Source of the DNA: a virus
Length of the DNA: 52,936 bases
Reading direction: 5' to 3' (one strand)
IMG/VR virus record: IMGVR_UViG_3300032213_002156
Span: 1-52,936 of that record
Position 1 is the first letter of the stretch. Each line of letters opens with the position of its first letter. Under the pieces are notes generated by a model. That model saw only the letters and a list, made by a program, of their open reading frames with translations. It had not been told where the DNA came from and searched no databases. Shown one piece after another: positions 9,601 through 47,423 of the stretch. The position numbers and the translations under genes are program-made.

Positions 9601-12600
9601 TTACATTGCGCTGTACACTACCAGCGCCCGGGAACACAGTGCCGTCGGTCGGTGCACCACTATAGATACTGCAATTATTTGGGCACAAGTCAACAGACTG
9701 TCCAAAGTTAACAAACCCTGCATTGGTAATATCAGTAGCAGTACCAGTACCGGAACCTGCCCCGGTTGCAATAAACACTGTTCCTATATTATTATTTACA
9801 GCTCCAACACTAATAAAATTAGTGTTCCCAACAGTTGCAATACTGTATGACTGGCCGACAATAAATTGTCCTGCGTTAACAGTTGCAGGGCGTTGTGTAA
9901 TCTTCTGTACCGATCGGAAAATATTACTTTCAATTTCAATTATGTCGCCAACTACCAGTGTTACATTATCTTCTAGTGTTACTGTATTGCCCGACACTGT
10001 AAATTGTCCGTCAATAAATTGGCCAGCATCGGTTAAAAACGCATTGTTAATTGTTACAGATACTGGGGTGTTAAATCCAGCAGGTAATGTAAAAGTTTTT
10101 ACTCCTGTTTCACCGATACCAACTTGATATCTTGCCACACTCCGATTGTACACATAGGTACTGCCATAGGCCAATCCATTGTTGTCATCAGTTGGTGCTC
10201 CAATGATTATCTGCTGGCCGTCTGTTGCTGTTGCTACACTTGTTCCAAATCCAGAACCTACTGGACCGGAAATAGTTTCAACATACGTAAAATATGAACC
10301 AGTTTCGGCGATAATCTTAGTGCCGGCAGCCGGTAGCGTAACAAAAGTTAATGTAGTTCCTGCAAACGTATAATCAATGTACGGTCGTTGTAGCGCACCG
10401 TTAACAGTAACGCTGAAAGAATTAAGATTTGTAGCGGTGTATAGTGTTGTACTTAGATCAAATACAGAAGTTGTTGAAACGCCAGATCCAGAATATGTGT
10501 ATTCCGTTATTGATCCAACATCGTCAATTGCAGTTACAGTGATTGTGATATCATTTGCCGGCGATGTTCCGCCGCCGATTGTTGCTGCATCAATTGTAAT
10601 TGTATTTCCAACTTCGTAGAATACACCAGGTTGAGTCATTGTAACTGTGTATACTCCGCGAACTCTTTTAACTGTAAATAATGCAAGTATGCCCGGACCG
10701 TCGGTTGAGTCCTGCTCAACATTGTAATAGGTTTCAGCATCCAATTGTGTCAACATATTTCTTGTTATTACAACTGGTAAATCTCTAAGGGGAGGAGTGG
10801 CAAATACCACATCCAATGAATTCAGAGTATACTCAACTCCATACGTTTGAACCACAGCATTAACAGTTACAGTTATTTGTCCAGGCTCTGCCAAGTCAAA
10901 TACTAAATTATCGCTGTAATTAAACGACGTAGTAACACTGTCGCCAATGTACTTTACTTCTTGAATTTCCAAATCCGAACGACCGTATGCATACACTGCA
11001 TTTTGCGCTGGGGCACCGACATACGCCCACCGTTCGTCTCGGCTGATTGCCACAGCGGAGCCAAAACTTCCTGCGCTGTTACCATAGTCGGGTGCAATCA
11101 ACAATTGTGTTTGTAGGAATTCATTACTGGCAGGTGCTCGGTACAGTATAACTGTATATCCGTCGCCACCGTTACTTTGTCCGGCTCCGGCAATGGCCCA
11201 GGATTGATATCCAATGTCTAATGCACTACCATATCCTACTGTACCGGTAGTTCCTAATTGTATTATTGGGCTTTCTTCATATGTACCGCGTTGGCCGCGG
11301 AGGTATGGATAGATTGCACCCGCGCCATCATCGTACATTGGTGCACCAATCAATGCCGCAATATTTTCGTACGCTTGAGCAACACTTGCGCCGTAGCCCG
11401 TGTTATATAATGGCGTGTTTTGATCGAGTGCGTAGCCGGGTGCAAAAACATTTTGTTTTTCAAGTACTTCCCACAACCCAGCACCGTTGTTGTCAACCCA
11501 GGCCATTGCACCTGGTATCAAGTCATTGGCAAATGATAATGTGCCAACATCACTGGCTTGAGCGACACGCATAGTGTCGAGATAAAATCCTATTCCTGAT
11601 CCAGTTATAGTAGTTTGATTACCATTTGGAAATGTGTACGCAACAGTGAGCGTGGTTGGAGTAGGAGTAGTTAGTACACGATATACGCCATTGAAAGAGT
11701 CATTGAAGAATCGAACAATTAATATATCGCCTAGAGATAAATTATGTACCTGAGTAAATGTTACTAGACTGGCACCGTCGAGATTGTCAGTAACACGAGT
11801 AACTCTACCCGGCACTTGAGTAGTACGATAAACATTCCAATCATAACTGTTGGTTTTAGCTACCCAAATTTTTGTACCATTGCCGATTGAGTCCAAGTTA
11901 GCGGCAATATTACTTGGATCATCTAAAGAAAATACTGTTATATCAACGTCGTCGATGTTGACATAGCCTGCGCTTGGCAACGCTGTATCGGTCATCTGAG
12001 TTGTGGTGGTGGTTAAGAAATTCGGCGAAGTTAACTTGTAACTTTCGCGCCACACATCATTTAACAACACAGTCTGATTTGCCAAACTTGTTTCGCCTGG
12101 CAAGATTACTTGTATGGTAGACGGATCACTTTGTAACAACGGCTCGTTTAATCGCAACTCAACATAACTGCGATTTGCGTTTGCTCCATATGTGCCGCGG
12201 CGTATAGCCCAGTTTTCGTAAATTTGATAATCTGCAGTCTCTTTACCAAGGTTGGCACCAGTGAATAATTCGGCACTTAATATTGTTCCTTTGGTGCCAA
12301 TAAATTGTTGATATAAGTTAACCTGACTAGCATCGTCGAGATTAATTGCAACCATGTATTCTCTAGGCTGGAATCCGATCAATCCAAAACTCAGTAGATC
12401 GTTATCGCCTTCGAGGTTTGCAGTTTGCGTGTTGTAACTGTTCTCTATCTGATCTGCTTTGTTTGCAATATTAGGCAACAGTCCTTTTTGTATCTTGGTG
12501 AAGTCACTTTTAACCCAGTCAGCATAGGCAAATTCTCTCTTGGGCTGAATAATATCTTGTGCGGACCAATAGTTGTTTTTGTAAAGAACAATCTCGCCCT

Positions 12601-15600
12601 TGGCATACTTGATATTTGGACTCCATTCTTTAATGTTGTCTCGGTTAAGCACAAAGCCTTGTGCATTTAATGTTCCGTTCCACTCAGTGGTTGTAATAGC
12701 ATTAACATAAATGCGATTTTGTCGTGCACCAGTTGCTGGATTGTAAATTAAATCTGCAAAAATACTGATGTTGTTAAGTATTACAATATCTTCATAGTTA
12801 ACAAATTGTAATTTTACATAGGAAATTGCCTGGTTGTTTGTGCCATTTATTGTGAATCGATTTTCTAATCGCTCAATTACCAAGTTTCTAGCATCAAACG
12901 GTGTGCGGTTTTGATCCAGCAACATATTTTCTGGATTTTGAACACTGATGCTGTCAACCACTGCGCCGGGTCTTTCTGCAATTAATTGCAGTGCGGCAGG
13001 ATTTAAATTGATTAAACTGTCAACTGCCCAGCCCTGGTTTGCCCAATAAAGAAACTCGCTGGCCATTTGCTTCCAGTCAAGTGTGTACCCATTTTCTCGT
13101 GTGTCAAATATTAACCCTTGTGTGGTCAAGTATTGTCCATAGCTTAACAAAAAGTCAACCACAGATGATTGGTTAGTAAACACAAACCCGTATGGAACTT
13201 GCACAATATCATTTGTATATTGCCGTGGGACTCGCACTGTACTGCCCCCGGCACTGATGGTTTGCAACTCGCCACTGGCACGACTTGCATAAATGTCAAA
13301 GTACGGATCGGTTGTACTGTAACCAAAAACTGCATATCCTGTATCAGTGAGTTGGATAATCACTGCACTGTATGCTACAGACGCAAAGGGTGAGTTTTTG
13401 TACAACATCAAGTCGTAGCTTTCGTCTGGCAACAATAAACTTGAATTTAAACTGTTAGGGCTAGAACGTTCTGTGTATATTTTTAAATATTGTTTATCTG
13501 TAAAACTTGCAGTTCTCCAGCACAAACGAACATCAAGATTTGCCAGTGCTTCTTCCAGTGCCTGTGTTGAATTAATGCCCAGCTGTTGATTGTAGTCAAC
13601 AATCCAGTTGATGTAACTGGCCTTGCTGACAGGAGTAACAACACCTGTTGATGTGTTAACGTTACCACCATACACTTGTACGCCGCTGGCGTCTAGTCGA
13701 TATCGACCATTGTACAAGTACTGTTGAAATTCTGTGCTGTACTTGTAAAGGTCTCGGTCCGCAAACAAGCTGAAGAATTTTGCAGGGCGTGTCAGTGCCA
13801 ACAAGCGCATGACAGCAAATGGGTAACTACTAGAGGTCCACCATGCAGCCTCTACTGGGCCGCCATCGCCGACCACCCAACTCTTGCGCCAAGCAGTAGG
13901 ATCATATTGTCCAACAACACTATCCAATGGAGCCAGTAACTGGCCTTCTGTGCCAGTTGGTATAAAGTAAGTTGATAAGTTTGGTCTTATAAAGTTGGGT
14001 CTAACATAAGCGCCTGCCGGATCGGCCACAATACCCGCTTGTATGTCATCCCATAACACCAAGTTGTCCTGTGTGTATGGCGCAGGGCCATATCGTGTTT
14101 CCCACCATGAGGGCATTTGACTAAAACCCAACATCTCCCACGGAGTGTAGTTTGGAGCCAGTGTATCATAAAAATATCTACTGATGCCGCGCCAGGCTCC
14201 CAGCAACGGCAAATCTTTTTCTTTGTCTCCTGCTTGACTATAGTTGTAGGTAAACGGATTGCTGGCAATGTACTGCTGTGTTTTGTAGTCTAGCTTGTTT
14301 TGTCCTACCCAAGTCAAAAAACTTTCGCCTAGAATAGTTGTAATCTCAGCCTGGGTATAATCTGTTGTGCGGAAATATCCCGGAATAACTTCTTCAGGTG
14401 GAATTGGTACTGGATTACCTTCGGTTTTTAAGTTGTTGAAAATTCTACGTTCAAATTCTAATAAGATATCATCGCGCATGTCGCCAAAGGCTGTGGTAAT
14501 ACTGCCATCGTGTCCACGGATAACAACAGTTGGGTTTACATAGTTTTCATCCAGGAACATTTCAGGTTTATATGCCTGATACAATCCCATTTTGGTAGGA
14601 GTGTTGGGGACAAAGTTACCGGCAGTGTCTGCGTATTCACGAATGGTAACTACATCGCCAACTGTCAACGTAACAGTAACAGTCAGTGTTGGACTGTCTG
14701 CTGATACAGTGTAATCAGAGTTTAATGTTAGCAGTGTATCGTTTAGATAAACCAATAACCCTAAAAAGTTTGCAGAAGTAAATGTGTGCGTTTGTAGGGT
14801 GTCAAATGTTCCAACTGTAATTGGAGTTACTGTATAAACAGTATCCGTGTAGACATTGCCGCTGGGCAACATGTCGCTGTAATAAAAGCTGTTTAAGTTA
14901 GTTTTACCAATGTTTAAATCAGTGACCACAGCGTCAAGAATTTCGCTTGTTGTTAAATTGCCCCATTCTCCTCGAATAGTGTTTTCTAACAGTCTGTTTT
15001 TAAATTTATTATATTCTCTATCGTTAAACTCTAACGATTTAAAGATATTATACTCACTGCTTCGCATAAAGAAGCCGGCCAGAGTCAATGGTGCGCTCTG
15101 TTCCAGTATAGTTGTACCATAGCGACCAATGTCGCCTAGATCGCGTGTGTTGTTTGCGCCGTTGATGACACCTGCAAAGTTGATTAAATTTCTAGCAATG
15201 CTTTCGTAATGTGTTCGTATAGTACCCAATGTGAAATAAGGACTGTTAACGTTAAACGGATTATTTGCCAAATTAATTGGCACTTGATAAAATCCATTGT
15301 CACTGGGCTCCGTGCTCAAGACCTGAACTTCAATGATTGACCCTGGTGTATAGATATTATTCAATACAATTGTAGTTGTAGTATTGGTTCTTGTTACTGT
15401 GTACTCTGCAGGCAAGATATACGTGTTGGCCACATAAAGTTGTATTGGCGGAACAACTGTGTTCTCAGGTATATTGATATTAAATCGTAACGGAGATCCA
15501 TCGTATGTAAACTGGAATTGTTGACGAATCAAACTTGGAGTCGCGGCCACTTGCCATCCAAGTTCTCGTTCGTAGACGACTCGACTGGCATATTGATACG

Positions 15601-18286
15601 AGTAGCCATCACTTATATTAAGAGTCTCAGAGGTATTTTGTACAACATACGTAAATTGATCTGTATAAAAATTATTATCAAATACAATGTCACCAATGTT
15701 GTTTATACTTAGATAACGAAGTGGAAATCCCAGCACAGTATCTGCGACACCTTGGCCAGTGGCATAACTGAACAACTTACTACCAGCAAATGTAGTGCTA
15801 GGATACTTGCTACGGTCGCTAAAACTAATGCCAGCAGAATCATACACATTAAACAATGGCGCTTGATTTGTCTTTGTCTTTTGTTGTCCTTTTATCCAAG
15901 CAACACCATCATAATAATAACTTGTTCCTTGTGTTGTTAATCCGTTAAGTGTAACTACTGTTTGATCAACTAGTACCGTGGAGTCATCAGCAGGAACTAG
16001 ATCAATGATAGGTTGTATAATTAGTGGTGGTACAGTGTCGGGTGTAATGAAATTTACAACGTAAATTTTATTTCTAACTTCTGGATCGGTGTCTGCTGCA
16101 AAAATAACACGGGTGCCTTGAACAAATTCGTATCCATCAATGCCGTAACCAAGTGATCCATTAATGGTACTCAGTGCGTCTGTGACAGCAAAGTCAACAA
16201 TATTAACTGGAAGTTTTCCTTGCGTTCCAAAATCATATAAGCGTGTTCCTGCATTAAATTCTATAATAGGGCGTTTAGCACTTTGACTGTTGCTTATAGT
16301 TGGTGTTGTGTTATTATACGCCGCAGATGCATTGATAACATCAATGTGGAACCAACGATTACTACGTGTCCAAGCACTTAAATCAGGGCTGGCACGACCA
16401 ATTGTAAGATACTCTGGGATCAGTGGCGCATTCAAAGAAGCATCATAGTTTCCAACATCGTATCTAAGACTATCATAAGGAATAAATGCATTTTGGGTAT
16501 ATGTTTCTGGCGTGACAAAATCAGTAACTGGCAATAATTTAATTGCTGTTCCAACACCTTCAACATAGTATTCTTGGTTTTCATACTCGGCCGGTATTGT
16601 GCTGCCACGAAATTGAACTTTAAGTCCGTTGGTAAACACTACGCCATTTGAACTGGTGTAGTTTGGGCGGCCAATGATGTCGTTGATATAGGTTGTGGTC
16701 GCATTGTCTTGATCAAGCAAATGAATTTGTCCGAAAATACCAGGATCTGTTCCGTCTTGATAGTACAATGTATCTTTGATTGCTGTTAGCAAAGGAATTG
16801 CTTGAAAATATCCTTCGGCATTTTTATACCAACTGGTATTTGAATATTGGTTACCAAAAGCAATAGAGAATTTCGTTAACTCAGCAACGTCGAGTATACT
16901 GGTCAACTGGATGTACTCTACACTGTCAATTGTGACGTAATTGATTTGCCAAACACTGTATCGTTGTTCTGGGGTAAGATCAACTGTTACTTCATACGGG
17001 GCAGAATCAAAGCCTCCGTCAACAGTTGAAATAATTTGCCAGCCACCTTCGGCTGCGCCTTCTACTGTGCTTAAAAATACCAGTGTTCTGCCATTGATAT
17101 TGGTAGTGCCGTCAATGCCTGTTGCGTTGTTCAAAAAGAATGTTGAAACAGGAATGTTGTTGATTTCGCTGAACATTAAATTTGTAGCCAGGTCAACTGA
17201 CCCAATGCTGTCAAGTCCGTAGTAAAAACTCTGCGCAGTGGATAACGGTACATTAAATGTTACGGCTCCAAGATCTTCGCCGTTGTTGGTTACGCCTAAT
17301 ACATCTCTACTGCTGATGTTAGGTGACCAAGGTAATACTCCGTTAACGCCAGGTTCTGCCTGTATCCAAAAACCTGGACCGGTACCAGGTGTCCCGTCAA
17401 TGATAGTCAACACGCCTTGCATGTTAAACTGTGTTTCACTTGCGTAGTACAGTGTGTCTGGGGCGTCTTGCGGAACAGTAAATGTGATGTTACCAGTGTT
17501 TGCACCATTGCGACTTACACCTTCGTTGTATTGATCAGTACGACCTTGCGATGGTGTTGTTTTAATCCAAAACGGAGACACTACGCCAAGATTTAAATTG
17601 AATACGTATGTGTTTCCACGCACAAGAGTCAGTGCCGGATTTGGCAAGTAATCAATGATGTATGCCGATGTTGTGGCCGCTGTTACACGATAGTTTACTG
17701 TTTCTGTTGCATTTTGTGCCACAGTGAATGTGTAGTTACCGCCACGCAATAATGTAATTGCAGGATTGGATCCGTTATAGTCTGAGAATGTATATACACC
17801 ATTTTCTCTTGTGACAATATAATCAGCAGAGAGTGGAACTGCTGTGCCGCCTACCGTAACTGACAGTGGGCCACTTGGCAACCAATAGTATTGACCGTAG
17901 TTTACAAACATGTCCCAGTTGATCTGCGGGTCCCAGGTATAGTACTCGCTAGTATAAAGCCGTTCGCTTTGATCAACAAAGGCACCTTGTGATCCCAATG
18001 AATCGGTAATACCTGGATAGGTAACTGCGTCTTTGATTACTGTGGAGTCAGTTTTTCTAAAGATAACGCCCGGTTCAAGTTGATAATCTGTGCGGGATCT
18101 AGTAGGTTCAATAACATATTTGTCATCAGCATTTACACCCGGGCCTACACGATGTCCAACATATCCTTGTGTCTTTTTAAACTGCGGCTCTTGTACCAAC
18201 TGATCTAGTGTGGCAGCTAAAAATTGCTTGTTTGTAGACGTCTGAAATATCTCTGGTAGAAAATCTACCGTTCTCACTGTGGCCAT
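3617..18286 (-). CDS. Giant multidomain virion (baseplate/tail) structural protein, 4889 aa
   Basis: One uninterrupted 14.7-kb frame starts at an ATG overlapping gp6's stop as TAATG. The N-terminus (NFLPEIF-like VDFLPEIFQTSTNKQFL) is of a type I recall from large structural proteins of cyanophage-like T4 phages. Residues about 180-350 hold three cupredoxin-like segments (LVRGNTYVF, PFWIKT, DTLYYASE) without copper ligands. Between about 2350 and 3200 there are six FG-GAP-like blades (for example SFGSAVAISRDERWAYVGAP and GFGTSVATATDGQQIIIGAP), consistent with a beta-propeller. At least ten copies of a hairpin module (VNGxxQxxxxDYT) are scattered from about 945 to 4815. Two TAIGA/GTGTAT modules lie near 2840 and 3570. 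It occupies the place of T4 gene 7 after gene 6, but the sequence does not show gp7 homology to me. Confidence 0.85.
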   Translation of the reverse strand: MATVRTVDFLPEIFQTSTNKQFLAATLDQLVQEPQFKKTQGYVGHRVGPGVNADDKYVIEPTRSRTDYQLEPGVIFRKTDSTVIKDAVTYPGITDSLGSQGAFVDQSERLYTSEYYTWDPQINWDMFVNYGQYYWLPSGPLSVTVGGTAVPLSADYIVTRENGVYTFSDYNGSNPAITLLRGGNYTFTVAQNATETVNYRVTAATTSAYIIDYLPNPALTLVRGNTYVFNLNLGVVSPFWIKTTPSQGRTDQYNEGVSRNGANTGNITFTVPQDAPDTLYYASETQFNMQGVLTIIDGTPGTGPGFWIQAEPGVNGVLPWSPNISSRDVLGVTNNGEDLGAVTFNVPLSTAQSFYYGLDSIGSVDLATNLMFSEINNIPVSTFFLNNATGIDGTTNINGRTLVFLSTVEGAAEGGWQIISTVDGGFDSAPYEVTVDLTPEQRYSVWQINYVTIDSVEYIQLTSILDVAELTKFSIAFGNQYSNTSWYKNAEGYFQAIPLLTAIKDTLYYQDGTDPGIFGQIHLLDQDNATTTYINDIIGRPNYTSSNGVVFTNGLKVQFRGSTIPAEYENQEYYVEGVGTAIKLLPVTDFVTPETYTQNAFIPYDSLRYDVGNYDASLNAPLIPEYLTIGRASPDLSAWTRSNRWFHIDVINASAAYNNTTPTISNSQSAKRPIIEFNAGTRLYDFGTQGKLPVNIVDFAVTDALSTINGSLGYGIDGYEFVQGTRVIFAADTDPEVRNKIYVVNFITPDTVPPLIIQPIIDLVPADDSTVLVDQTVVTLNGLTTQGTSYYYDGVAWIKGQQKTKTNQAPLFNVYDSAGISFSDRSKYPSTTFAGSKLFSYATGQGVADTVLGFPLRYLSINNIGDIVFDNNFYTDQFTYVVQNTSETLNISDGYSYQYASRVVYERELGWQVAATPSLIRQQFQFTYDGSPLRFNINIPENTVVPPIQLYVANTYILPAEYTVTRTNTTTTIVLNNIYTPGSIIEVQVLSTEPSDNGFYQVPINLANNPFNVNSPYFTLGTIRTHYESIARNLINFAGVINGANNTRDLGDIGRYGTTILEQSAPLTLAGFFMRSSEYNIFKSLEFNDREYNKFKNRLLENTIRGEWGNLTTSEILDAVVTDLNIGKTNLNSFYYSDMLPSGNVYTDTVYTVTPITVGTFDTLQTHTFTSANFLGLLVYLNDTLLTLNSDYTVSADSPTLTVTVTLTVGDVVTIREYADTAGNFVPNTPTKMGLYQAYKPEMFLDENYVNPTVVIRGHDGSITTAFGDMRDDILLEFERRIFNNLKTEGNPVPIPPEEVIPGYFRTTDYTQAEITTILGESFLTWVGQNKLDYKTQQYIASNPFTYNYSQAGDKEKDLPLLGAWRGISRYFYDTLAPNYTPWEMLGFSQMPSWWETRYGPAPYTQDNLVLWDDIQAGIVADPAGAYVRPNFIRPNLSTYFIPTGTEGQLLAPLDSVVGQYDPTAWRKSWVVGDGGPVEAAWWTSSSYPFAVMRLLALTRPAKFFSLFADRDLYKYSTEFQQYLYNGRYRLDASGVQVYGGNVNTSTGVVTPVSKASYINWIVDYNQQLGINSTQALEEALANLDVRLCWRTASFTDKQYLKIYTERSSPNSLNSSLLLPDESYDLMLYKNSPFASVAYSAVIIQLTDTGYAVFGYSTTDPYFDIYASRASGELQTISAGGSTVRVPRQYTNDIVQVPYGFVFTNQSSVVDFLLSYGQYLTTQGLIFDTRENGYTLDWKQMASEFLYWANQGWAVDSLINLNPAALQLIAERPGAVVDSISVQNPENMLLDQNRTPFDARNLVIERLENRFTINGTNNQAISYVKLQFVNYEDIVILNNISIFADLIYNPATGARQNRIYVNAITTTEWNGTLNAQGFVLNRDNIKEWSPNIKYAKGEIVLYKNNYWSAQDIIQPKREFAYADWVKSDFTKIQKGLLPNIANKADQIENSYNTQTANLEGDNDLLSFGLIGFQPREYMVAINLDDASQVNLYQQFIGTKGTILSAELFTGANLGKETADYQIYENWAIRRGTYGANANRSYVELRLNEPLLQSDPSTIQVILPGETSLANQTVLLNDVWRESYKLTSPNFLTTTTTQMTDTALPSAGYVNIDDVDITVFSLDDPSNIAANLDSIGNGTKIWVAKTNSYDWNVYRTTQVPGRVTRVTDNLDGASLVTFTQVHNLSLGDILIVRFFNDSFNGVYRVLTTPTPTTLTVAYTFPNGNQTTITGSGIGFYLDTMRVAQASDVGTLSFANDLIPGAMAWVDNNGAGLWEVLEKQNVFAPGYALDQNTPLYNTGYGASVAQAYENIAALIGAPMYDDGAGAIYPYLRGQRGTYEESPIIQLGTTGTVGYGSALDIGYQSWAIAGAGQSNGGDGYTVILYRAPASNEFLQTQLLIAPDYGNSAGSFGSAVAISRDERWAYVGAPAQNAVYAYGRSDLEIQEVKYIGDSVTTSFNYSDNLVFDLAEPGQITVTVNAVVQTYGVEYTLNSLDVVFATPPLRDLPVVITRNMLTQLDAETYYNVEQDSTDGPGILALFTVKRVRGVYTVTMTQPGVFYEVGNTITIDAATIGGGTSPANDITITVTAIDDVGSITEYTYSGSGVSTTSVFDLSTTLYTATNLNSFSVTVNGALQRPYIDYTFAGTTLTFVTLPAAGTKIIAETGSYFTYVETISGPVGSGFGTSVATATDGQQIIIGAPTDDNNGLAYGSTYVYNRSVARYQVGIGETGVKTFTLPAGFNTPVSVTINNAFLTDAGQFIDGQFTVSGNTVTLEDNVTLVVGDIIEIESNIFRSVQKITQRPATVNAGQFIVGQSYSIATVGNTNFISVGAVNNNIGTVFIATGAGSGTGTATDITNAGFVNFGQSVDLCPNNCSIYSGAPTDGTVFPGAGSVQRNVNQARVYGVISSQVPNPVLTGGDTIRIDNYEITIPLSPNNTVAGVVNAINSANEGVGIPNVRASAPGDLYFTADGVTKTYDIGVTYSQYATYNPVVYVDGTLQILNVDYTYNNSTGIISFIYSPEAQAIILVVQGILTLNVINAAAVLSNSRLTVSPGVVGTAFADFGFVEYVYTQTITSPAPTVDANFGSEVFINTDATTLVVGAPRGNLYEPVTFDNDTTYFDDRSTVFSTVVVQSGVTYTFDYLPSSTDSVSNPGQFVFGQQMYDSNITPLDQYGTAISYVTGRLLIGSPGSDFGDSSNSNYGRVSVFENADRTPAWTVKHVQQPVVEIALLNSVYMYDKLESTITSYLDFIDPLQGKILGVARENIDYIGAVDPASYNNGPVRNIGNPWAAARIGEIWWDTNSVRFIDPNQDDIVYASRRWSQVFPGSSVDIYQWIESDVTPAAYTGPGTPLSVVSYTTRSELNTDNIFATRYYFWVRNIATVATAANKKLSTNAIANYISNPRSSGISYLAPLNASTVAIYNVMGLISAQDTILHIEYDRIKNDDNVHQEYELIADGIADSFLSAGLYLKLQDSLSGVNITGAQVPDASLSPAERYGVEFRPRQSMFVDRFAALKNYFGYANRIMANYPIAETKSLTLLNSKDTEPTATQAYYAGTFNIGDTYTISYVGTTDFTAIGASSNAIGVSFVATGVGQGTGTATFTNWNFRVADITELGYQNLLIVPYGYRYLVATDSSNQGFWTIYDVIAGPLVGSKELRLVRVQNYDTSRYWSYINWYTPGYNSTVNPVATVVNYAELAGITLNVAPVGASVKVTNAPAGKFEIYQRTLTSWDRVGLEDGTIELSAELWNYSLGNFGFDSEVFDAQYFDQEPVIETRKIVQAINQQIFIDELAINRNRSLMLMFEFIMSEFSAPDWLLKTSLIDVNHKIRSLLPYQLYRQDNQDFVLNYIQEVKPYHVQIREFNLQYTGNDEYPGSITDFDNPAFFDETLTVPQFIAPVLLPYTESTANSPTNSNADTASNAIIWTETPWVDWYNNYTLTVQSVVITNTGSGYTVAPTITITGAATVPAEMTAVVNSAGQVVGVNITEYGSGYVTTPIITFVGGNGSGATAAVVMGNDLVRQIKTTIKYDRYQYFSTIQEWQPNVNYDDGTQVRYADRVWQAASPDSTGVQSATFDPLDWILVNAGTLSGVDRTMGFYTPTVNQPGLSLPLLIDGVEYPGVQVFGVGYDQYPGFDVAPYDSTPFDNLTYGPEGRPTFDQTILDTIFESPYTDPYLGTRPTSINVEGGEYIDVYSSYAPEELVPGSEFDTLDIRVYTTPGADWARDGHGFRTEVRKFTVTSVGETYSFAGVTPVPATMLIANQTLGLDLAIDVSYTANWAEQTITLDPSVAVGSEIVITLYEIGGGNQLFKRAYNGAEIGSSVVVPVKYSLIDQFVIFANGTLTTDYTFVPYGTTSTEVVFGTPYTINDYLMIGAIGPTTIDGTEIDYSWSVPVTQYITGVTGVLEYDLTNSMEYTNPDNVVVTFNGIRARTSAGIEYLADGTTDYLLPTRLGFSQSTISDNEVHVYVDNVPQVLGVDFTVEPYDPNTPRAVMFTEPLTLGEKILICVTTGTQASVVGTQLLFNAFNGMVPSNGDIIAVTSWNDTRQQDILTQVYVGPVSSTALPAIVEPFSSTKYDNPPGDASVEPGQYDFSTPRPVTLNNLYLNRVITNPDRLWVTLNGLQIFVNDGFTIVDNQIVLASGYIMSATDVVMITEFTNSVAPEAMAFRIFQDMRGVQATYRITPATTTYLVAPLSTTDDVIYVHNAAALNEPNLAMNIWGLLTINGERIMYRNRDTVANTVSGLRRGTAGTGVASHAVDADVYNISRGNLLPPQFQNYIVSNITYPLVPGVNLGDGVTTSFVAELIDVSAADSTVDNEAVEVYIGGIRQYGGYTITNENPVTVEFNTAPPEGVEVTILVRRGVTWYAPGINTPSNGVALQDTETQAARFLRGE

Positions 18287-38402: not shown

Positions 38403-40115
38403 ATGCAAGGATTTAAAATATCAAGCGTCACTGAATATCAATTGGAGATTACCTCTTATTGTAATGCCGCTTGTCCGCAGTGTCCACGCAACGTCAACGG
38501 CAGCGGTGTTAATCCACATCTTACACTAGAACATCTTCCTAGATCGGTAATAGACGCTGCCTTCACAGAAGATCTGTGTCTTAATTTAAGACAGGTATTC
38601 TTCTGTGGCAGTTACGGCGATCCTATTATGCATCCAGACTTCCTGGATATACTACGTGACTTTAGACACAAGTGTCCGACACTGTGGTTGTACATACACA
38701 CCAATGGCGGTGCCCACGATACAGAATATTGGACTACAATGGCAGAGATCATTGGAGGGTATGGTCAGGTAGACTTTAACATCGACGGAGTTGAAGATAC
38801 CAATCACTTGTACCGGCGCAATACAGACTTTAACAAAATTATTGCCAATGCCACTGCGTACATCAATGCAGGTGGACGTGCGGTGTGGAACTATATTATA
38901 TTTGAACACAATCAGCATCAAGTTGAGCAGGCAAGAGAGTTAAGCATCAAATTAAGGTTTAAAGATTTTAAACATCGTGCTACTGGTAGATTCTTAAATC
39001 ACAAAACCATGGAAGAATTTTCAGAATGGCCTGTGCAGAATCGACAAGGCGAAACAGAGTATGTTATCAAGCCCACTGTGTTAAAACAATACAAAAACAA
39101 AAGCATTAGCATACTTCCAGATTTAAAAAAGCAATACCCGGATATCAAAGAATATTTTGCCAACACTGAGATTAGTTGTGACTCGCTAAAAGGCAACAAA
39201 GTTGCTATCAATGCCGCAGGACTTGTGCTACCATGTAATATGTTAAGCCACAACCTGAGCGATGCCAGATTTCGTGACCAATCTGTTCTGCCGTGTAGTA
39301 ACGATTTAAGCACTGTGGATGGCAAAAATCAAGTGCAAGAATTTGTCAACCGTCACGGTGCCAACAACTTAAACATACATCATCGTTCGCTGGAACAGGT
39401 GTTTGATAGTTCTTTCTGGACAGATCTTGTAGATAGTTGGAAGTATAATACATTTCCTGAGAGATTATTTGAGTGTGCAATGACCTGCGGTAAACAGTTT
39501 CAAAAAGTATGGGATCAAACTAAAATGAACAAGACATTCTTAATCACTGGCGGCAATCGAGGTCTAGGACTACACCTAACAAAAACGTTTGGCGGAACTA
39601 GTGTTAGCCGGGTTCAAGGGTATGATATTACAAAACATGCTAAAGAAATTGCAGAAATAAGTTTAGACTTTGATGTGTTCATCAACAATGCGTTTGACGG
39701 GCCTCCACAAGAAGATTGGGCCAACTTTGCACAATCGCAAATATACATGGCAGTATATGATGCGTGGAAAGCGGCAAGAAAAGCCGGCTATATCATTAAC
39801 ATTGGCAGCGCCGGCAGCAAAAGTATTGTTGCTCCGGAGCCAAGATTTGAAACATATAGAATTAGTAAGGCAGCCCTAGAACACGCAAGTCGTCAAGGCA
39901 CACAGGCATTTAAACAAAACATTGTACCATTTAAAACAACACTCATTACACTAGATAGACTAGACACAGAACTTAGTCGTGGCCGTACCAATTGGACAGG
40001 CAACGGCATTAATTTAAACGACATCAGCAACTTTATAACATACGCTACCACAGTAAGTTCAAATACTGTGGTAGAAGAGGCAACTTTTTACGTGAACTTT
40101 GATCATAAGGCATAA
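38403..40115 (+). CDS. Fusion: radical SAM (SPASM-like) enzyme + short-chain dehydrogenase, 570 aa
   Basis: Residues 1-370 form a radical SAM enzyme: EITSYCNAACPQCPRN has Cys20, Cys24 and Cys27, and FFCGSYGDPIMHPDF is the usual second motif. Cysteines in LPCNML and ECAMTCGK suggest a SPASM-like auxiliary cluster. Residues 375-570 are an SDR domain: FLITGGNRGLG (cofactor loop), FDVFINNAFDGP, NIGSAGSKS and YRISK (Tyr485, Lys489 catalytic pair). No stop separates them; the junction is DQTKMNKTF, and its Met375 (ATG at 39525, GGGA just upstream) could also be an internal start. SPASM enzymes commonly modify peptides or sugars, and SDRs oxidise or reduce hydroxyls. A combined modification pathway is inference. 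Confidence 0.85.
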   Translation: MQGFKISSVTEYQLEITSYCNAACPQCPRNVNGSGVNPHLTLEHLPRSVIDAAFTEDLCLNLRQVFFCGSYGDPIMHPDFLDILRDFRHKCPTLWLYIHTNGGAHDTEYWTTMAEIIGGYGQVDFNIDGVEDTNHLYRRNTDFNKIIANATAYINAGGRAVWNYIIFEHNQHQVEQARELSIKLRFKDFKHRATGRFLNHKTMEEFSEWPVQNRQGETEYVIKPTVLKQYKNKSISILPDLKKQYPDIKEYFANTEISCDSLKGNKVAINAAGLVLPCNMLSHNLSDARFRDQSVLPCSNDLSTVDGKNQVQEFVNRHGANNLNIHHRSLEQVFDSSFWTDLVDSWKYNTFPERLFECAMTCGKQFQKVWDQTKMNKTFLITGGNRGLGLHLTKTFGGTSVSRVQGYDITKHAKEIAEISLDFDVFINNAFDGPPQEDWANFAQSQIYMAVYDAWKAARKAGYIINIGSAGSKSIVAPEPRFETYRISKAALEHASRQGTQAFKQNIVPFKTTLITLDRLDTELSRGRTNWTGNGINLNDISNFITYATTVSSNTVVEEATFYVNFDHKA

Positions 40116-41952: not shown

Positions 41953-42004
41953 AGAAAAATATTGATGAGCGATAGCGAAATCAATAGAACTTCGCAGAAG
42001 TTCT
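41953..42004 (-). terminator. Terminator-like hairpins after the nucleosidase operon
   Basis: Directly at the stop codon, AGAACTTC and GAAGTTCT (41997-42004 with 41986-41993, three-base loop) form an eight-pair hairpin. A second inverted repeat (ATTGAT/ATCAAT, 41961-41966 with 41980-41985) follows, and on the minus strand it is succeeded by ATTTTTC and, further on, a run of T at 41938-41947. This fits a termination zone for the minus-strand operon. Confidence 0.55.
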
Positions 42005-42546
42005 TACACAGTTACACCAAGTTCAAGTAGTTTAGCAATAAAGAACTTTTCTCCCAAAGATACAGATTCTTTCCATGAATCCGATGCTTGAGCATCTGCT
42101 TGATCTGTAATATACTTGAAGCAACGAAACTCAATCTTATTGCGTATACAAGCCTTTGCGATAGAGTATGCTTCCATGTCGACTAGATCTGCAGGAATAC
42201 TAAGAATTGGATTCATTACAAAGTTGTCACCGGTACTGCATGTAAGTCCGTGAGTTCCTGTACTTAAAATAACATCATCCTCAAATGGTGTTTGCCCGTC
42301 TAAGCATCCCAGGGCTTGACACAAGATATCTCGTTGTACAAAACAAGTACATTCGTGCAGTCCGGGTCCAGCAGTTATGCCACCTGCTGTTCCAACATTA
42401 ATAATACGATCTGGTTGATATCGTTCAATTACCTGAGCGGCTGTTAATGCCGCATTTACCTTGCCTACCCCAGTATAAAAAACATTCATCATGTGTCGTA
42501 GGTTAGGAGCCTCGCCAGGTAAGGCAATCAACACTACTGTTTTCAT
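42004..42546 (-). CDS. MTA/SAH-type nucleosidase (nucleoside phosphorylase family), 180 aa
   Basis: The family motifs are clear: FYTGVGKVNAA (23-33), INVGTAGG (49-56), VDMEAYSIAKAC (122-133, with M124/E125 binding the ribose) and YITDQAD (145-151), where Asp148 matches the catalytic Asp of bacterial MTA/SAH nucleosidase. At 180 residues it is shorter than the usual 230, lacking part of the middle and the C-terminus. Family members cleave adenine from methylthioadenosine, S-adenosylhomocysteine or 5'-deoxyadenosine. The last is the by-product of radical SAM enzymes, two of which lie 2-5 kb away. The start overlaps the upstream stop as ATGA. It is the last gene of the gp26 operon. The exact substrate is not decided by sequence. 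Confidence 0.82.
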   Translation of the reverse strand: MKTVVLIALPGEAPNLRHMMNVFYTGVGKVNAALTAAQVIERYQPDRIINVGTAGGITAGPGLHECTCFVQRDILCQALGCLDGQTPFEDDVILSTGTHGLTCSTGDNFVMNPILSIPADLVDMEAYSIAKACIRNKIEFRCFKYITDQADAQASDSWKESVSLGEKFFIAKLLELGVTV

Positions 42547-42882: not shown

Positions 42883-43314
42883 TTATAGTGGTCCTAAAAT
42901 TTCAAAACCTTCAAGGTCTTGTTTGTACAAATGCGCTTGATCCAGATACAAGTACTCAAATCCGCGGTCTCTGTAAATTGCACACTCTGTTTGTAAACTT
43001 GTAATACCCAACCGTAGTCGAGGTGTACGATAGTTCCACGCAAACTGTGCGGCTAATAAATTTCGATCATCGTAGCGTTTCATCATAGAAAATGCTACCA
43101 GTTCGCCGTTGTCTCTGTAGCCTATGAGATCCATTCCGGGTTCTGTAAACTGACTGTCAAACAACGGCATTACACTGCCAAAGTGTTTGTAAATGCAGTA
43201 GGTTCTATATATGTCTTGCAGTTCAGCAATGTTGGGTTCAGTAATGTAAAACCAATCCACTCGTGGCCGATATGTTGTTTTTTCTAAATTAATACGTGCA
43301 AACTGATAAGTCAT
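42883..43314 (-). CDS. GNAT-like acyl/aminoacyl transferase fold protein, 143 aa
   Basis: The central part, DLIGYRDNGELVAFSMMKRYD, then LLAAQFAWNYRTPRLRLGI, and YRDRGFEYLYLD, follows the strand and helix order of GNAT domains. It is most like the C-terminal half of aminoacyl-tRNA-protein transferases, where a small side-chain-free loop precedes the LG...I helix. The classical acetyl-CoA loop (R/QxxGxG/A) is not well formed, so the cofactor is uncertain. Its length fits a single GNAT domain. It starts with an ATGA overlap with the upstream 168-residue gene. The assignment is by pattern only. Confidence 0.5.
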   Translation of the reverse strand: MTYQFARINLEKTTYRPRVDWFYITEPNIAELQDIYRTYCIYKHFGSVMPLFDSQFTEPGMDLIGYRDNGELVAFSMMKRYDDRNLLAAQFAWNYRTPRLRLGITSLQTECAIYRDRGFEYLYLDQAHLYKQDLEGFEILGPL

Positions 43315-43823: not shown

Positions 43824-44054
43824 TTAGAAAAATGGCAGTCCAGATTTTTTAGTTGTTTCTAAATTGTCTTTGATGATTTCAGAAACGGCATTGCGTTCTT
43901 CAAAACTGAGATTTAATGCAGCCTCATAAGATAGCCCACCACGCATATACCACACCATTTTTAATGCCTCAGATTTTATTGATTTAGCCTCTTTTTCCAT
44001 TTGATCTACCCATTTGGAAATTTGGTCAGAGTCCAGTACTAAGAGGCGTCCGCG
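43824..44054 (-). CDS. gp51-like downstream frame, probably made by -1 frameshift from gp26
   Basis: This open frame lies in the -1 frame relative to gp26 and overlaps its last five codons. It encodes 76 residues after the slip: DSDQISKWVDQMEKEA, ALKMVWYMRGGLSYEAALNLS, and DNLETTKKSGLPFF at the end. I recall this C-terminal pattern from small proteins after gp26 in aquatic T4-like phages; T4 places gene 51 (hub assembly catalyst) after 26. There is no ATG, GTG or TTG at its beginning. The first ATG (QMEKEA) has no Shine-Dalgarno and would remove the first 19 residues. Joined by the slippery site, the product would be a 350-residue gp26-gp51 fusion. Confidence 0.65.
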   Translation of the reverse strand, partial: RGRLLVLDSDQISKWVDQMEKEAKSIKSEALKMVWYMRGGLSYEAALNLSFEERNAVSEIIKDNLETTKKSGLPFF

Positions 44055-44875
44055 AAAAAACTTGTCATATCCAATGTAATAGCCTGTTTATATTCTTTAG
44101 TACATTCGCCACATGAAATTGTCAATGGTTGTATTTCTGCAGCTAATTTTGTTTCAATAATGTGATCTCTAATTTTACCAAATAGTCTACGATCACAATT
44201 TTTTAACATGTCTTCAATGTACTCGGGTTCGCTTACTAACGCATCAGGAGTTTTAACTGCTGAAATGCTTTGTGCCAATGCGCTTACAGTGATCTCTGTA
44301 ATTTTCATCAATGCCGCACTGAGCGCAGACATACGTTGTTCGTCGGGCATGTCGGTTCCCGGTAACACTTGTAGTATTTTCTGTTCTTCGAACTGTCGTT
44401 GATTATTCTCATTGAGGTTTCGGTACGACATTGGTTTAAAATATATTTCTAAATCTCCATCGTTTACGGGTTTAGAATAATCAGGAGCCTTCATATTCTC
44501 AAGCATGTTGCGTAAATCAATTCCGTAATCTGCTTCGTTTTTACAATGCGGACAAGTGGTTGAAATTTCCATTGTAGTTCCATAACTGGCCATGCGTATT
44601 GCAACCAAAATAGTATCCACATCCATGGCAGGTATGCTCCAAGGATCTTTAATAGCAGGAACGCAACTTTTAATAACATTAACAACAGCATTACCGTTGA
44701 ACAACGCATCGGGAGTCCTGTAAGTAATTTCATCAATTGCTGTCATTGGATAAACAGGCAGTTCTTGATTGGGCGGCATTGCAATTGCTCCTTCGGAATA
44801 ATATTTTCCGCCACTGGGCAACCGGACGTACACAGCCGGTTGTCTAAAATATTGTGTTAATGGGTTATTTGACAT
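44039..44875 (-). CDS. 26: Baseplate hub subunit gp26-like protein with zinc ribbon, 278 aa
   Basis: The N-terminus, YFRQPAVYVRLPSGGKYY, then LPVYPMTAIDEITYRTPDALFNG, broken as MTAIDEITYRTPDALF, is typical of gp26-like hub proteins of cyanophage-type genomes. Two Cys pairs, CPHC (108-111) and CGEC (255-258), probably bind one zinc. T4 gp26 has 208 residues; this form is longer. AGGA precedes the ATG. The gene is divergent from the tape-measure gene, with 25 bases between starts. Near its 3' end, codons 272-274 form a -1 slippery heptamer, so a fraction of ribosomes could extend the protein. In T4 terms it works in assembly of the hub; a tail-chaperone role is inferred from the layout. Confidence 0.8.
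   Translation of the reverse strand: MSNNPLTQYFRQPAVYVRLPSGGKYYSEGAIAMPPNQELPVYPMTAIDEITYRTPDALFNGNAVVNVIKSCVPAIKDPWSIPAMDVDTILVAIRMASYGTTMEISTTCPHCKNEADYGIDLRNMLENMKAPDYSKPVNDGDLEIYFKPMSYRNLNENNQRQFEEQKILQVLPGTDMPDEQRMSALSAALMKITEITVSALAQSISAVKTPDALVSEPEYIEDMLKNCDRRLFGKIRDHIIETKLAAEIQPLTISCGECTKEYKQAITLDMTSFFADAS
44054..44060 (-). promoter_or_regulatory. -1 frameshift slippery heptamer T TTT TTC
   Basis: On the minus strand the gp26 codons AGT TTT TTC contain the canonical X XXY YYZ heptamer with X=Y=T and Z=C. Slipping back one base gives TTT TTT and continues CGC GGA CGC CTC into the gp51-like frame, which is then open for 76 codons. In the zero frame gp26 stops four codons after the heptamer. 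No strong downstream stem was found. Confidence 0.65.
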
Positions 44876-44900: not shown

Positions 44901-47423
44901 ATGGCAAGTATGTACACCCCCGAAGAAAAAGCAGAAATTGAAGCGCGAGCGACGGATGAGATAAAACGTCTTGGCGCTGTCTCCATTGAAACTAAAATGG
45001 CATTAATGGACATGTCCGTTGGTGTTAAAGGGTTCACTGGTAGTTTAACCAAAGGGTTTGGACAACTGGGAACTTCTGCACTGGGATTAACTAAACAACT
45101 GGCAGACGGTGAAATTGGTGCGTCGGTATTTAACAAATCCATCGGCGGCGTGGCAGATGCACTGGGAGATCTACTAGGATTGATTCCTTATGTGGGCGGT
45201 GCACTTAAAACACTGGTCAAAGGTGCGTCAGAGTACACGCAGGCAGTAAATCAACAGGCAGATTTACTGTATAAAAATTATCAAGAAATGTCTAAAATGG
45301 GTGCTACAGCATCCGATGGCATGCAAGGTGTTTATGATAATCTAAAACGCATGAACTACGGCACTGACGAACTGGACAAGTTCGTCAGTATTGTTAAAGA
45401 AAACTCAGTAACATTGGCCAATTTTGGCGGCACAGCAAGTCAAGGCCTTAACCAACTGGCCTCTGTGTCTTCGTCTATACAGCAAAGTGATATGGGACGC
45501 CAGTTCCGAGACATGGGCATGAGTGTTGACGAAGTTAACAAAGGCATTGCAAGTTATACAAAACTACAAATGCTGTCCGGTGCTCGACAAAAAATGTCCG
45601 CAGACGAGCAAGCCGCGGCAGCTGCCAACTACATTAAAGAAACAGACTTATTAGCAAAAATAACCGGTAAGAATAGAGAACAACAAGAACAGTCGCGCGA
45701 AAGTGCATTGGCAGAAGAACGCTATGCTGCCTACAAAACAGAATTAGAACAACGTGCTGCCATGGGCGACACAGCGGCTGCTGAACAACTTAAACAAGTT
45801 GAACGTACACAGATACAGTTAGACAAAGTGGCCCCTGAAACTCGCAAAGGTTTCTTGAACATCCTGTCAGGTAGTTTGAATACTCCAGAAGCACAAAAGT
45901 TGCTGTTGACAATGCCTAACGCGGCCGCAGTAGCAGGACAAGAAACATTTACACAGGCTGAATTCATGGCAGCCGCACAGAAAGATGCAGCCGCAAATGT
46001 AACAGGTTACGCCAAAGATTTGGCCAAAATGGGTGTTAACAACGAGACGTTTATAGCCTTCCAAGAACAAAACAAACTGGCAGCTATGGGTGTGACTGGA
46101 ACAGTTGAAGAGCAGTTAGAGGCAGCTAAAAAAGCACAAACTGTTACAGATAAAACCACGCAGAACATGACAGATCTGCAGGATGCCAATCGCGCATCAC
46201 GTGATAAATTGCAAGATTTAATCAACGCTGGTATAACTCCTGTTACAACTGGAATGAAAGGGCTGGCCAACGCCACTGATAAGACCATTGAAGCCATGAC
46301 TAAGTTGGCTAATGCGGCCGGAGTCACAACTAAAAAACGTGATGAACCAGGAGCTGCCGCACAAGCCGCACCAAGACCGGCTGCGCCGCCTCCTACTGCA
46401 CCTGCGGCAGCACCAGCCCCAGCGGCAGCTAAACCGGCAGCACCTGCGGCAGAACCTGCGGCAGCACCTGCCAAGACAGCGGCAGCACCAGCGGCAGCAC
46501 CTGCCAAACCAGCGGCAGCACCAGCGGCAGCACCAGCGGCAGCACCAGCGACAGCACCTGCGGCAGCACCTGCGGCAGCACCTGCCAAACCAGCGGCAGA
46601 ACCTGCGGCAGCACCAGCTGGTGGTAATGAAAAAGTTGGATTTTTAGATAAAGCATTAAATCGATTGGCAGGACAAACTCCGTCGGCAGCACCTGCGGCA
46701 GCCAAGCCAGCCGGGGCTAAACCATTGGCGGCGGCGGCAAAACCTAGTCCTCGACCACCAGAAGGATCTGGAGCATCAGAATCTGGTCCAGACAAAGCGT
46801 TGGCCTCGGCAGTTGATTTAACAAAAATATTAAAATTTACTGCTAGATCTGGTAGTCAACAAGCCTTTGAAGGCCTAAATGACACATTTAAAAATTCTGT
46901 TATCTCTGCCGCAACTGAGTATAACAAATTAACCGGCGGTGTGTTACAGATTAACAGTGCCAAACGAGATCCTGTAGACCAGCAAAGAATTTGGGATGAA
47001 TCTGTAGACGCCGGTAGACCTGGCGTAAGTCCAACAGGTATGCCTATAGGCAAGCCTGGACGTAGTTTACACGAAAAAGGCGAAGCAATTGATGTTCAAA
47101 ATTACCAAGATCCAATTGCTGTGTCTGCACTTAACAAATACGGATTAACGCAAAAAGTACCCAAAGATCCAGTACATTTTCAAGCCAAAGATGGTGGTGT
47201 AGTTCCACCGCTGCCAGGAGGATCAACAGTACTAGCAGGCGAAGCCGGGCAGTCCGAAGCAGTGGTTCCGTTACCAGATGGTAAAACAATACCTGTACAA
47301 ATGGTTGGCAATGAAGAACAAATGATCATGATGGCAGCACAACTAGATAAACTAGATCAAATGGTACGCATCATGCAAAATCAAGTAGGTGTGTCGGAGC
47401 AAATATTGAAGTATGCACAGTGA
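44901..47423 (+). CDS. Tail tape-measure-like protein with Ala/Pro linker and M15-like domain, 840 aa
   Basis: Residues 1-470 are long helices with small hydrophobic patches (LGLIPYVGGALKTLVKGAS), like tape-measure proteins. Residues about 485-575 are a linker of AAPAAAPAKP repeats. Residues about 672-760 resemble M15 (VanY-type) peptidases: INSAKRDPVDQQRIW, GRSLHEKGEAIDV and DPVHFQ. The usual acidic residue in the ExxH motif is replaced, so catalysis is doubtful. The C-terminus, VLAGEAGQSEAVVPLPDGK, is a typical tape-measure tail motif. Its place next to gp26/gp51 fits a tape measure beside its chaperones. T4's tape measure gp29 has 590 residues; homology to it is not evident by eye. It might instead be a hub protein. 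Confidence 0.65.
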   Translation: MASMYTPEEKAEIEARATDEIKRLGAVSIETKMALMDMSVGVKGFTGSLTKGFGQLGTSALGLTKQLADGEIGASVFNKSIGGVADALGDLLGLIPYVGGALKTLVKGASEYTQAVNQQADLLYKNYQEMSKMGATASDGMQGVYDNLKRMNYGTDELDKFVSIVKENSVTLANFGGTASQGLNQLASVSSSIQQSDMGRQFRDMGMSVDEVNKGIASYTKLQMLSGARQKMSADEQAAAAANYIKETDLLAKITGKNREQQEQSRESALAEERYAAYKTELEQRAAMGDTAAAEQLKQVERTQIQLDKVAPETRKGFLNILSGSLNTPEAQKLLLTMPNAAAVAGQETFTQAEFMAAAQKDAAANVTGYAKDLAKMGVNNETFIAFQEQNKLAAMGVTGTVEEQLEAAKKAQTVTDKTTQNMTDLQDANRASRDKLQDLINAGITPVTTGMKGLANATDKTIEAMTKLANAAGVTTKKRDEPGAAAQAAPRPAAPPPTAPAAAPAPAAAKPAAPAAEPAAAPAKTAAAPAAAPAKPAAAPAAAPAAAPATAPAAAPAAAPAKPAAEPAAAPAGGNEKVGFLDKALNRLAGQTPSAAPAAAKPAGAKPLAAAAKPSPRPPEGSGASESGPDKALASAVDLTKILKFTARSGSQQAFEGLNDTFKNSVISAATEYNKLTGGVLQINSAKRDPVDQQRIWDESVDAGRPGVSPTGMPIGKPGRSLHEKGEAIDVQNYQDPIAVSALNKYGLTQKVPKDPVHFQAKDGGVVPPLPGGSTVLAGEAGQSEAVVPLPDGKTIPVQMVGNEEQMIMMAAQLDKLDQMVRIMQNQVGVSEQILKYAQ
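46355..46625 (+). repeat. Ala/Pro-coding low-complexity repeat
   Basis: Short units of 12-18 bases built from GCGGCAGCACC and GCACCTGCC recur more than fifteen times inside the tape-measure-like gene. They encode (A)AAPAxPA-type linkers, with Lys or Glu every 8-12 residues. Such perfect DNA repetition favours length variation by slippage. The same composition produces long false frames on the other strand. Confidence 0.85.

Follow-up and report, generated by a model that had tools for sequence, protein, structure and literature searches.

A probable programmed −1 frameshift in a putative gp26-like tail assembly chaperone gene

In phage lambda, the short form of the tail assembly chaperone is proposed to coat the tape measure protein and the long form to recruit the tube protein (PMC5009743). 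The same 2016 review describes tail-chaperone frameshifting as conserved in long-tailed phages "except T4". The T4 proteins gp26 and gp51 have been listed as hub assembly chaperones, with gp51 being needed for assembly and absent from the particle; genetic evidence for gp26 in the hub is cited in the same source (PMC3004832). Tail assembly chaperones (TACs) of T4-like phages were identified by Vladimirov, Gautam and Davidson in 2022, as cited in PMC10885494 and PMC12846349. The PRFect paper (PMC10885494) summarizes that study as having described, in some T4-like phages, a short gene plus a long fused one; the 2025 paper on phage Adele (PMC12846349) refers to it for −1 signals of the poly-T type in the TAC-N genes of T4-like phages. 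The original prediction for the locus analysed here had presented a gp26–gp51 fusion as a new reading of these genes; going by the two citing papers, T4-like TACs had already been recognized in 2022.

Here we describe a gp26-like gene in a 52,936-nucleotide stretch of viral DNA (IMG/VR record IMGVR_UViG_3300032213_002156, positions 1 to 52,936; hereafter "the window"). Its features are listed in Table 1. Comparison with related loci points to a single tail assembly chaperone gene with programmed −1 ribosomal frameshifting, a reading to which we assign a probability of about 90%. To what was known, this adds the breadth of the heptamer, the jumbo phages and a co-varying stem; a search of the open-access literature found no prior description of these three points, which is weak evidence of novelty.

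Table 1. Positions of the gp26-like locus and its neighbour in the window
Feature	Coordinates	Strand	Remarks
gp26-like gene, putative short isoform (TAC-N)	44039..44875	minus	ATG 44875 to TAG 44039, 278 aa
Slippery heptamer T TTT TTC (gp26 codons AGT TTT TTC)	44054..44060	minus	phase X XXY YYZ, kept in related loci
−1 frame extension (TAC-C part of putative long isoform)	43824..44060	minus	FF + 76 codons + stop; predicted long product ~350 aa
5' arm of putative stimulatory stem, GCCUCUU	44041..44047	minus	6 nt after heptamer
3' arm of stem, AAGAGGC	43987..43993	minus	+67 to +73 from heptamer start; MFE structure of window
Alternative 3' arm with GAGGC	43966..43972	minus	+90 to +94; pairing partner in other clade members
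Divergent neighbour, 840 aa, candidate tape measure protein, VanY-like C-terminal domain	44901..47423	plus	tentative assignment

Slip site and −1 frame of the gp26-like gene

The gp26-like protein matched the PF12322 (T4_baseplate) profile with an E value of 8e-18 (65.3 bits, against a curated cut-off of 24.5) and phrog_150 ("baseplate hub") with an E value of 1e-17. The sequence AGGA lies directly 5' of its ATG. An AlphaFold model (pLDDT 86) resembled T4-like hub assembly proteins in a viral structure library; a PDB fold search with the same model returned no significant match and did not confirm the known TAC fold.

The 3' end of the gene reads GAT ATG ACA AGT TTT TTC GCG GAC GCC TCT TAG. 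The heptamer (44060..44054) thus sits in the zero frame in the canonical phase, four codons before the TAG, and the −1 frame is open from it to the stop at 43824, 76 codons past FF (FFRGRLLVLDSDQ...ETTKKSGLPFF; full translation, FFRGRLLVLDSDQISKWVDQMEKEAKSIKSEALKMVWYMRGGLSYEAALNLSFEERNAVSEIIKDNLETTKKSGLPFF). The original prediction had placed T TTT TTC four codons ahead of the gp26 stop and had described a −1 frame open for 76 codons, ending in ETTKKSGLPFF and lacking a start codon at its head. Position, phase, translation and the missing start all held up, with the genes lying on the minus strand and the first in-frame ATG of the extension at 44000. From that internal ATG, a mechanical ORF finder reported a 58-aa ORF only. 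The ATG sits in the middle of the conserved part of the extension and is absent in several close relatives.

The U_UU.U_UU.C type belongs to an efficient heptamer class in Escherichia coli (PMC4066793). The bare count of TTTTTTC in the window is uninformative (8 copies, fewer than the approximately 16 expected); the evidence is its conservation. Three rounds of IMG/VR searching (100 to ~35% amino acid identity to the query used, some contigs recurring between rounds) yielded an in-phase TTTTTTC in 18/18, 79/79 and 66/66 jumbo-type loci with a readable end, respectively. The heptamer stood at −19 from the stop in all 18 first-round relatives with a readable end. Overall, the gp26 stop took different positions relative to the heptamer (−19, −16 or −10), with both the slip site and the −1 frame staying in place. 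The amino acid before FF was variable (Ser, Asn, Thr, Ala, Asp, Arg or His) and the wobble T fixed: the codon carrying the first T was AGT, AAT, ACT, GCT, GAT or CGT, always ending in T.

Among 72 unique clade members, wobble entropy was zero at codons 272–274, whereas the median across 266 columns was 1.61 bits; codon 277, inside the overlap, was the one further position with zero wobble entropy. From the codon usage of the clade itself, the chance of NNT TTT TTC is approximately 0.11 per independent lineage (Ser ending in T, 0.475 × TTT, 0.637 × TTC, 0.363). The check proposed with the original prediction was whether heptamer and −1 phase are kept while synonymous sites vary; heptamer and phase were kept both in the clade and in distant phages. 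No upstream Shine–Dalgarno (SD)-like stimulator, an optional frameshift element, was visible 5' of the heptamer in the window.

The extension is 78 codons long in 107 and 79 codons long in 11 of 118 unique sequences. Its codons 7–20, which lie past the gp26 stop and ahead of the usual first ATG, vary as coding sequence does, with entropies of 1.18, 0.84 and 1.56 at codon positions 1, 2 and 3, respectively. A predicted model of the extension is all-helical (pLDDT 87); a fold search with it returned no match. Two frames of one apparent protein could also reflect decay or mis-assembly, in which a real or artefactual indel split one gene in two. This reading is barely credible against the same arrangement in approximately 200 separate contigs and finished genomes, the constant extension length and the coding-type variation, and we rejected both assembly error and a pseudogene on the comparative data.

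A co-varying RNA stem downstream of the heptamer

A putative stem begins after a spacer of 6 nt, where about 5–9 nt would be expected for a −1 signal, and both possible 3' arms occur together in the window (Table 1). We found GCCTC 6 nt past the heptamer in 67 of the 72 unique clade members, and the complement GAGGC at +69 or +90 in nearly all members carrying it. The GAGGC sites are GAG-GCN (Glu-Ala) codons, and Glu is encoded by GAG in only 20–25% of cases elsewhere in these genes. Where Glu-Ala is present at both sites, one is GAG and the other GAA in 7 + 3 sequences; both are GAG in two sequences and neither is in one. Pairing within the two main stem classes was mostly invariant, the sole clear swap within a class being the next pair (18–89) of the +90 class (CG in 16, UA in 13, five mismatches). 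The more distant set has other arms: GGCTTTTGA/TCAAAAGCC, GGCTCTTA/TAAGAGCC and ACTCTT/AAGAGT, as well as an arm GCCTAATTA with a near-complementary partner. Such a swap of both arms between groups would be hard to explain except by co-variation.

RNAalifold detected no consensus stem in a 23-sequence alignment because the 3' arm moves between positions, and the stem was assessed instead by class-wise analysis, synonymous shuffles and arm permutation. The best helix exceeded those of synonymous shuffles in 114 of the 118 unique sequences. When arms were permuted among the 118 sequences, the own-arm score was 20.1 versus 14.6 for permuted arms (0/5000), a result that held after reduction to 47 distinct arms, with relatedness not fully removed by the test. 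Folding energy relative to synonymous shuffles gave a z score of −2.0 at the stem and −0.48 in a control region. Folding of single sequences produced similar stems for Atu_ph07 (arms GGCUCUUUGU/ACAAAGAGCC) and Phosso, and cyanophages showed a hairpin at the same place (z of −3.3 versus −1.3 in a control). The co-varying stem thus appears to be a second signal beyond the heptamer of the original prediction. A stem that moves in this way offers a compact system for studying the joint evolution of RNA structure and overlapping coding frames.

Mixed products could also come from transcriptional rather than ribosomal slippage at the U6 run. The heptamer does contain six consecutive T, and poly-T tracts can cause transcript indels, although six T is short for efficient transcriptional slippage in bacteria. 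The invariant codon phase and a co-varying stem at canonical spacing fit a ribosomal signal, leaving slippage during transcription very improbable.

The heptamer, its phase, the coding −1 frame, the co-varying stem and the distribution of one versus two genes are read directly in the sequences; the ribosomal shift, its efficiency and the chaperone function are inferred. Most ribosomes would terminate at the gp26 stop, releasing a short chaperone of 278 aa. Held up by the RNA stem that starts 6 nt downstream, a minority would slip back one base on U UUU UUC, where both Phe tRNAs could re-pair, and would read 76 more codons. The resulting long chaperone would be ~350 aa in length, its C-terminal domain helical. 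If lambda G/GT is taken as the model, the short form would coat the tape measure protein and the long form would recruit tail tube subunits; T4 would arrive at the same two products with no frameshift, gene 26 encoding the short one and its paralogue, gene 51, the long one. TAC pairs are isoforms that share an N-terminal domain, the long one arising by frameshifting, and this locus carries the sequence signature of such a pair in its heptamer, −1 frame and stem. The central claim of the original prediction, that ribosomes enter a start-less extension by a canonical −1 slip close to the gp26 3' end, in the manner of lambda G/GT, is thus supported by the conserved heptamer, its phase and the co-varying stem.

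One gene or two across T4-like phages

T4 gp26 (208 aa) and T4 gp51 (249 aa) each hit PF12322 and phrog_150. In gp51, a further part at the C-terminus hits phrog_634; by these profile matches, the two are paralogues, one short and one long. The product had been predicted to be gp26 fused to gp51. That description needs correcting, as T4 gp51 itself consists of a gp26-like domain plus a C-terminal extension; the putative frameshift product corresponds to the gp51-type long form and gp26 to the short form. In T4 gp26, FF is encoded by TTC TTT and there is no heptamer. In a whole-genome search of 15 isolates, T4 and RB43 each had two PF12322 genes, and the remaining 13 had a single one. Since the tested phages with the heptamer have one such gene and T4 and RB43 have two, frameshifting most likely replaces duplication: where T4 needs two genes for its short and long chaperones, one frameshifted gene would supply both here.

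The heptamer is also present in the distant jumbo phages Atu_ph07, Phosso, PAC2 and 121Q, whose gp26 proteins are 26–34% identical to that of the window and whose extensions can be aligned with its extension. Cyanophage-type contigs carried T TTT TTC in the same phase at 80 of 80 loci. In P-SSM2, gp26 ends in AGT TTT TTC GTA TAA, with the annotated gp51 in the −1 frame. TTTTTTC was further found in Vibrio phages nt-1 and K571, Aeromonas phage G2 and S-CRM01, and variants of it in Melnitz (TTTTTTT) and RHph_I1_9 (TTTTTTG); two more nt-1-type contigs and one RHph-type contig agree with this pattern. In most cyanophage contigs, GGAGGG lies ~9 nt upstream of the slip site. This element resembles the SD-type stimulator of dnaX.

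This locus is mis-annotated in databases: the extension is left out (Aeromonas G2), cut short or listed as a gene of its own (P-SSM2, 121Q). In Aeromonas phage vB_AdhaM_G2, the gp51-like −1 extension (~2190–2373) is open and conserved and is unannotated in the public record. The jumbo-type extension did not match phrog_634, the C-terminal part of gp51; profile–profile comparison by hhalign gave probabilities of 1.5–6% and no significant link to the cyanophage extension. Nine of the 15 members of set A3 matched phrog_634. The proposed link between the extension and gp51 comes from its position and from relatives (cyanophage, Vibrio and Aeromonas) whose extensions match phrog_634.

Vibrio phages D532 and K364 have lost the heptamer (CTT TTC and CTT TTT), and an ATG overlaps their gp26 stop. 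Given these two phages, the family can apparently do without the slip, and they look like a natural switch from slip to re-initiation within it. They also favour coupled re-initiation more generally, in which the downstream frame would be translated separately, from an internal or overlapping start after gp26 termination, with no fusion. So do the annotation of a separate downstream gene in Phosso and 121Q, its ATG adjoining the stop, and the ATG found 3 nt past the stop in cyanophages. For the clade of the window this is improbable: the first ATG of the −1 frame falls at codon 16 or later in 103 of the 118 unique sequences, a position within or past the conserved N-terminal portion of the extension, and only nine of the 118 have an SD-like 4-mer ahead of it. 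Moreover, re-initiation would work without an invariant heptamer and without a stem 6 nt past it.

A single gene with a slip signal was present in every other lineage sampled, one Vibrio group excepted. On balance, we lean slightly towards frameshifting as the ancestral source of the two chaperone forms in T4-like phages at large (jumbo, cyanophage, Vibrio, Aeromonas and Rhizobium), with T4 and RB43 having lost the slip site after duplication and in-frame fusion of one copy. What drives the slip would be a stem with a 5' arm held in place by two overlapping frames and a 3' arm that relocates among several downstream sites. This distribution suggests that T4 is a derived exception within its own supergroup.

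Neighbouring genes and comparison with known systems

The original prediction had likened the layout to that of lambda. The short protein, the putative slip near its 3' end and the start-less extension fit; the neighbour taken for a tape measure gene (44901–47423) is divergent rather than downstream, and its identity is only inferred. A tape measure role is plausible for this 840-aa protein, which lies between portal and gp26, has a length equivalent to ~126 nm and contains a TMP-like motif (DGGVVPPLPGGSTVLAGEAGQSEAVVPLPDGK) in addition to the VanY-like domain. It matched no tape measure family, tblastn against phages found no match, and its similarity to the genes at the syntenic position in Phosso and PAC2 was weak or absent when they were compared in pairs. 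The gene also carries an Ala/Pro-rich 12-bp repeat array (46414–46618) before the VanY-like C-terminal domain. The usual, although not obligatory, place of TAC genes is immediately 5' of the tape measure gene and on the same strand; T4 also departs from this order.

It is unlikely, although less so than the other alternatives, that frameshifting is real and that the proteins do not serve as tape measure chaperones, being for example a hub component with an optional C-terminus. The "baseplate hub" annotation of gp26, genetic reports placing T4 gp26 in the hub (PMC3004832), the PDB fold search without a significant match and a divergent neighbour of putative role all favour such a reading. Against it stand the listing of gp26 and gp51 as hub assembly chaperones, with gp51 needed yet absent from the particle (PMC3004832), and the T4-like TAC genes that PMC10885494 and PMC12846349 credit to Vladimirov et al. 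(2022). In addition, a co-directional gene downstream of gp26/gp51 in Vibrio K571 and Rhizobium RHph_I1_9 matches tape measure families (5.7e-8 and 1.7e-5, respectively).

Several other genes came to our attention. Atu_ph07 gp701 (8510–9127 of its contig) is annotated as "tail length tape measure protein" at only ~205 aa and is probably misnamed, being too short for the tape measure of such a phage; it was left out as a length reference for this reason. On the minus strand of the window, one uninterrupted frame extends over 4889 codons (3617–18286). Near the tail genes lie a radical SAM protein (38403–40115), a phosphorylase-superfamily protein (PNP_UDP_1; 42004–42546) and a weak ATE_C-like acyltransferase match (42883–43314).

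Like lambda G/GT (Xu, Hendrix and Duda 2004; reviewed in PMC5009743), the locus combines a short protein, a putative −1 frameshift near its 3' end with a stop codon soon after the slip site, and a predicted long isoform extended at the C-terminus. Unlike the lambda pair, whose sequence family is unrelated to PF12322, the chaperone and the candidate tape measure here are divergently transcribed. The lambda heptamer, G GGA AAG, also differs from T TTT TTC. T4 gp26 and gp51 belong to the same family as the gp26-like protein (PF12322/phrog_150), with gp26 short and gp51 long through its C-terminal extension, but T4 uses two paralogous genes and no heptamer, whereas in the window one gene carries both slip site and stem. 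The gp26 and "gp51" of cyanophages (Kyanoviridae, for example P-SSM2) share the T TTT TTC in the same phase and a downstream hairpin; they differ in an extension of ~60 codons that corresponds to phrog_634, in the ATG 3 nt after the gp26 stop and in the GGAGGG ~9 nt upstream of the heptamer. The TACs of Vandenendeviridae and Andersonviridae (phage Adele, PMC12846349) are alike by description, with a poly-T slip motif (GTTTTT) at the TAC-N end and a conserved open −1 frame, although they belong to different phage families. The concept is already published, and this locus adds a well-supported example to a known mechanism without being a new kind of system.
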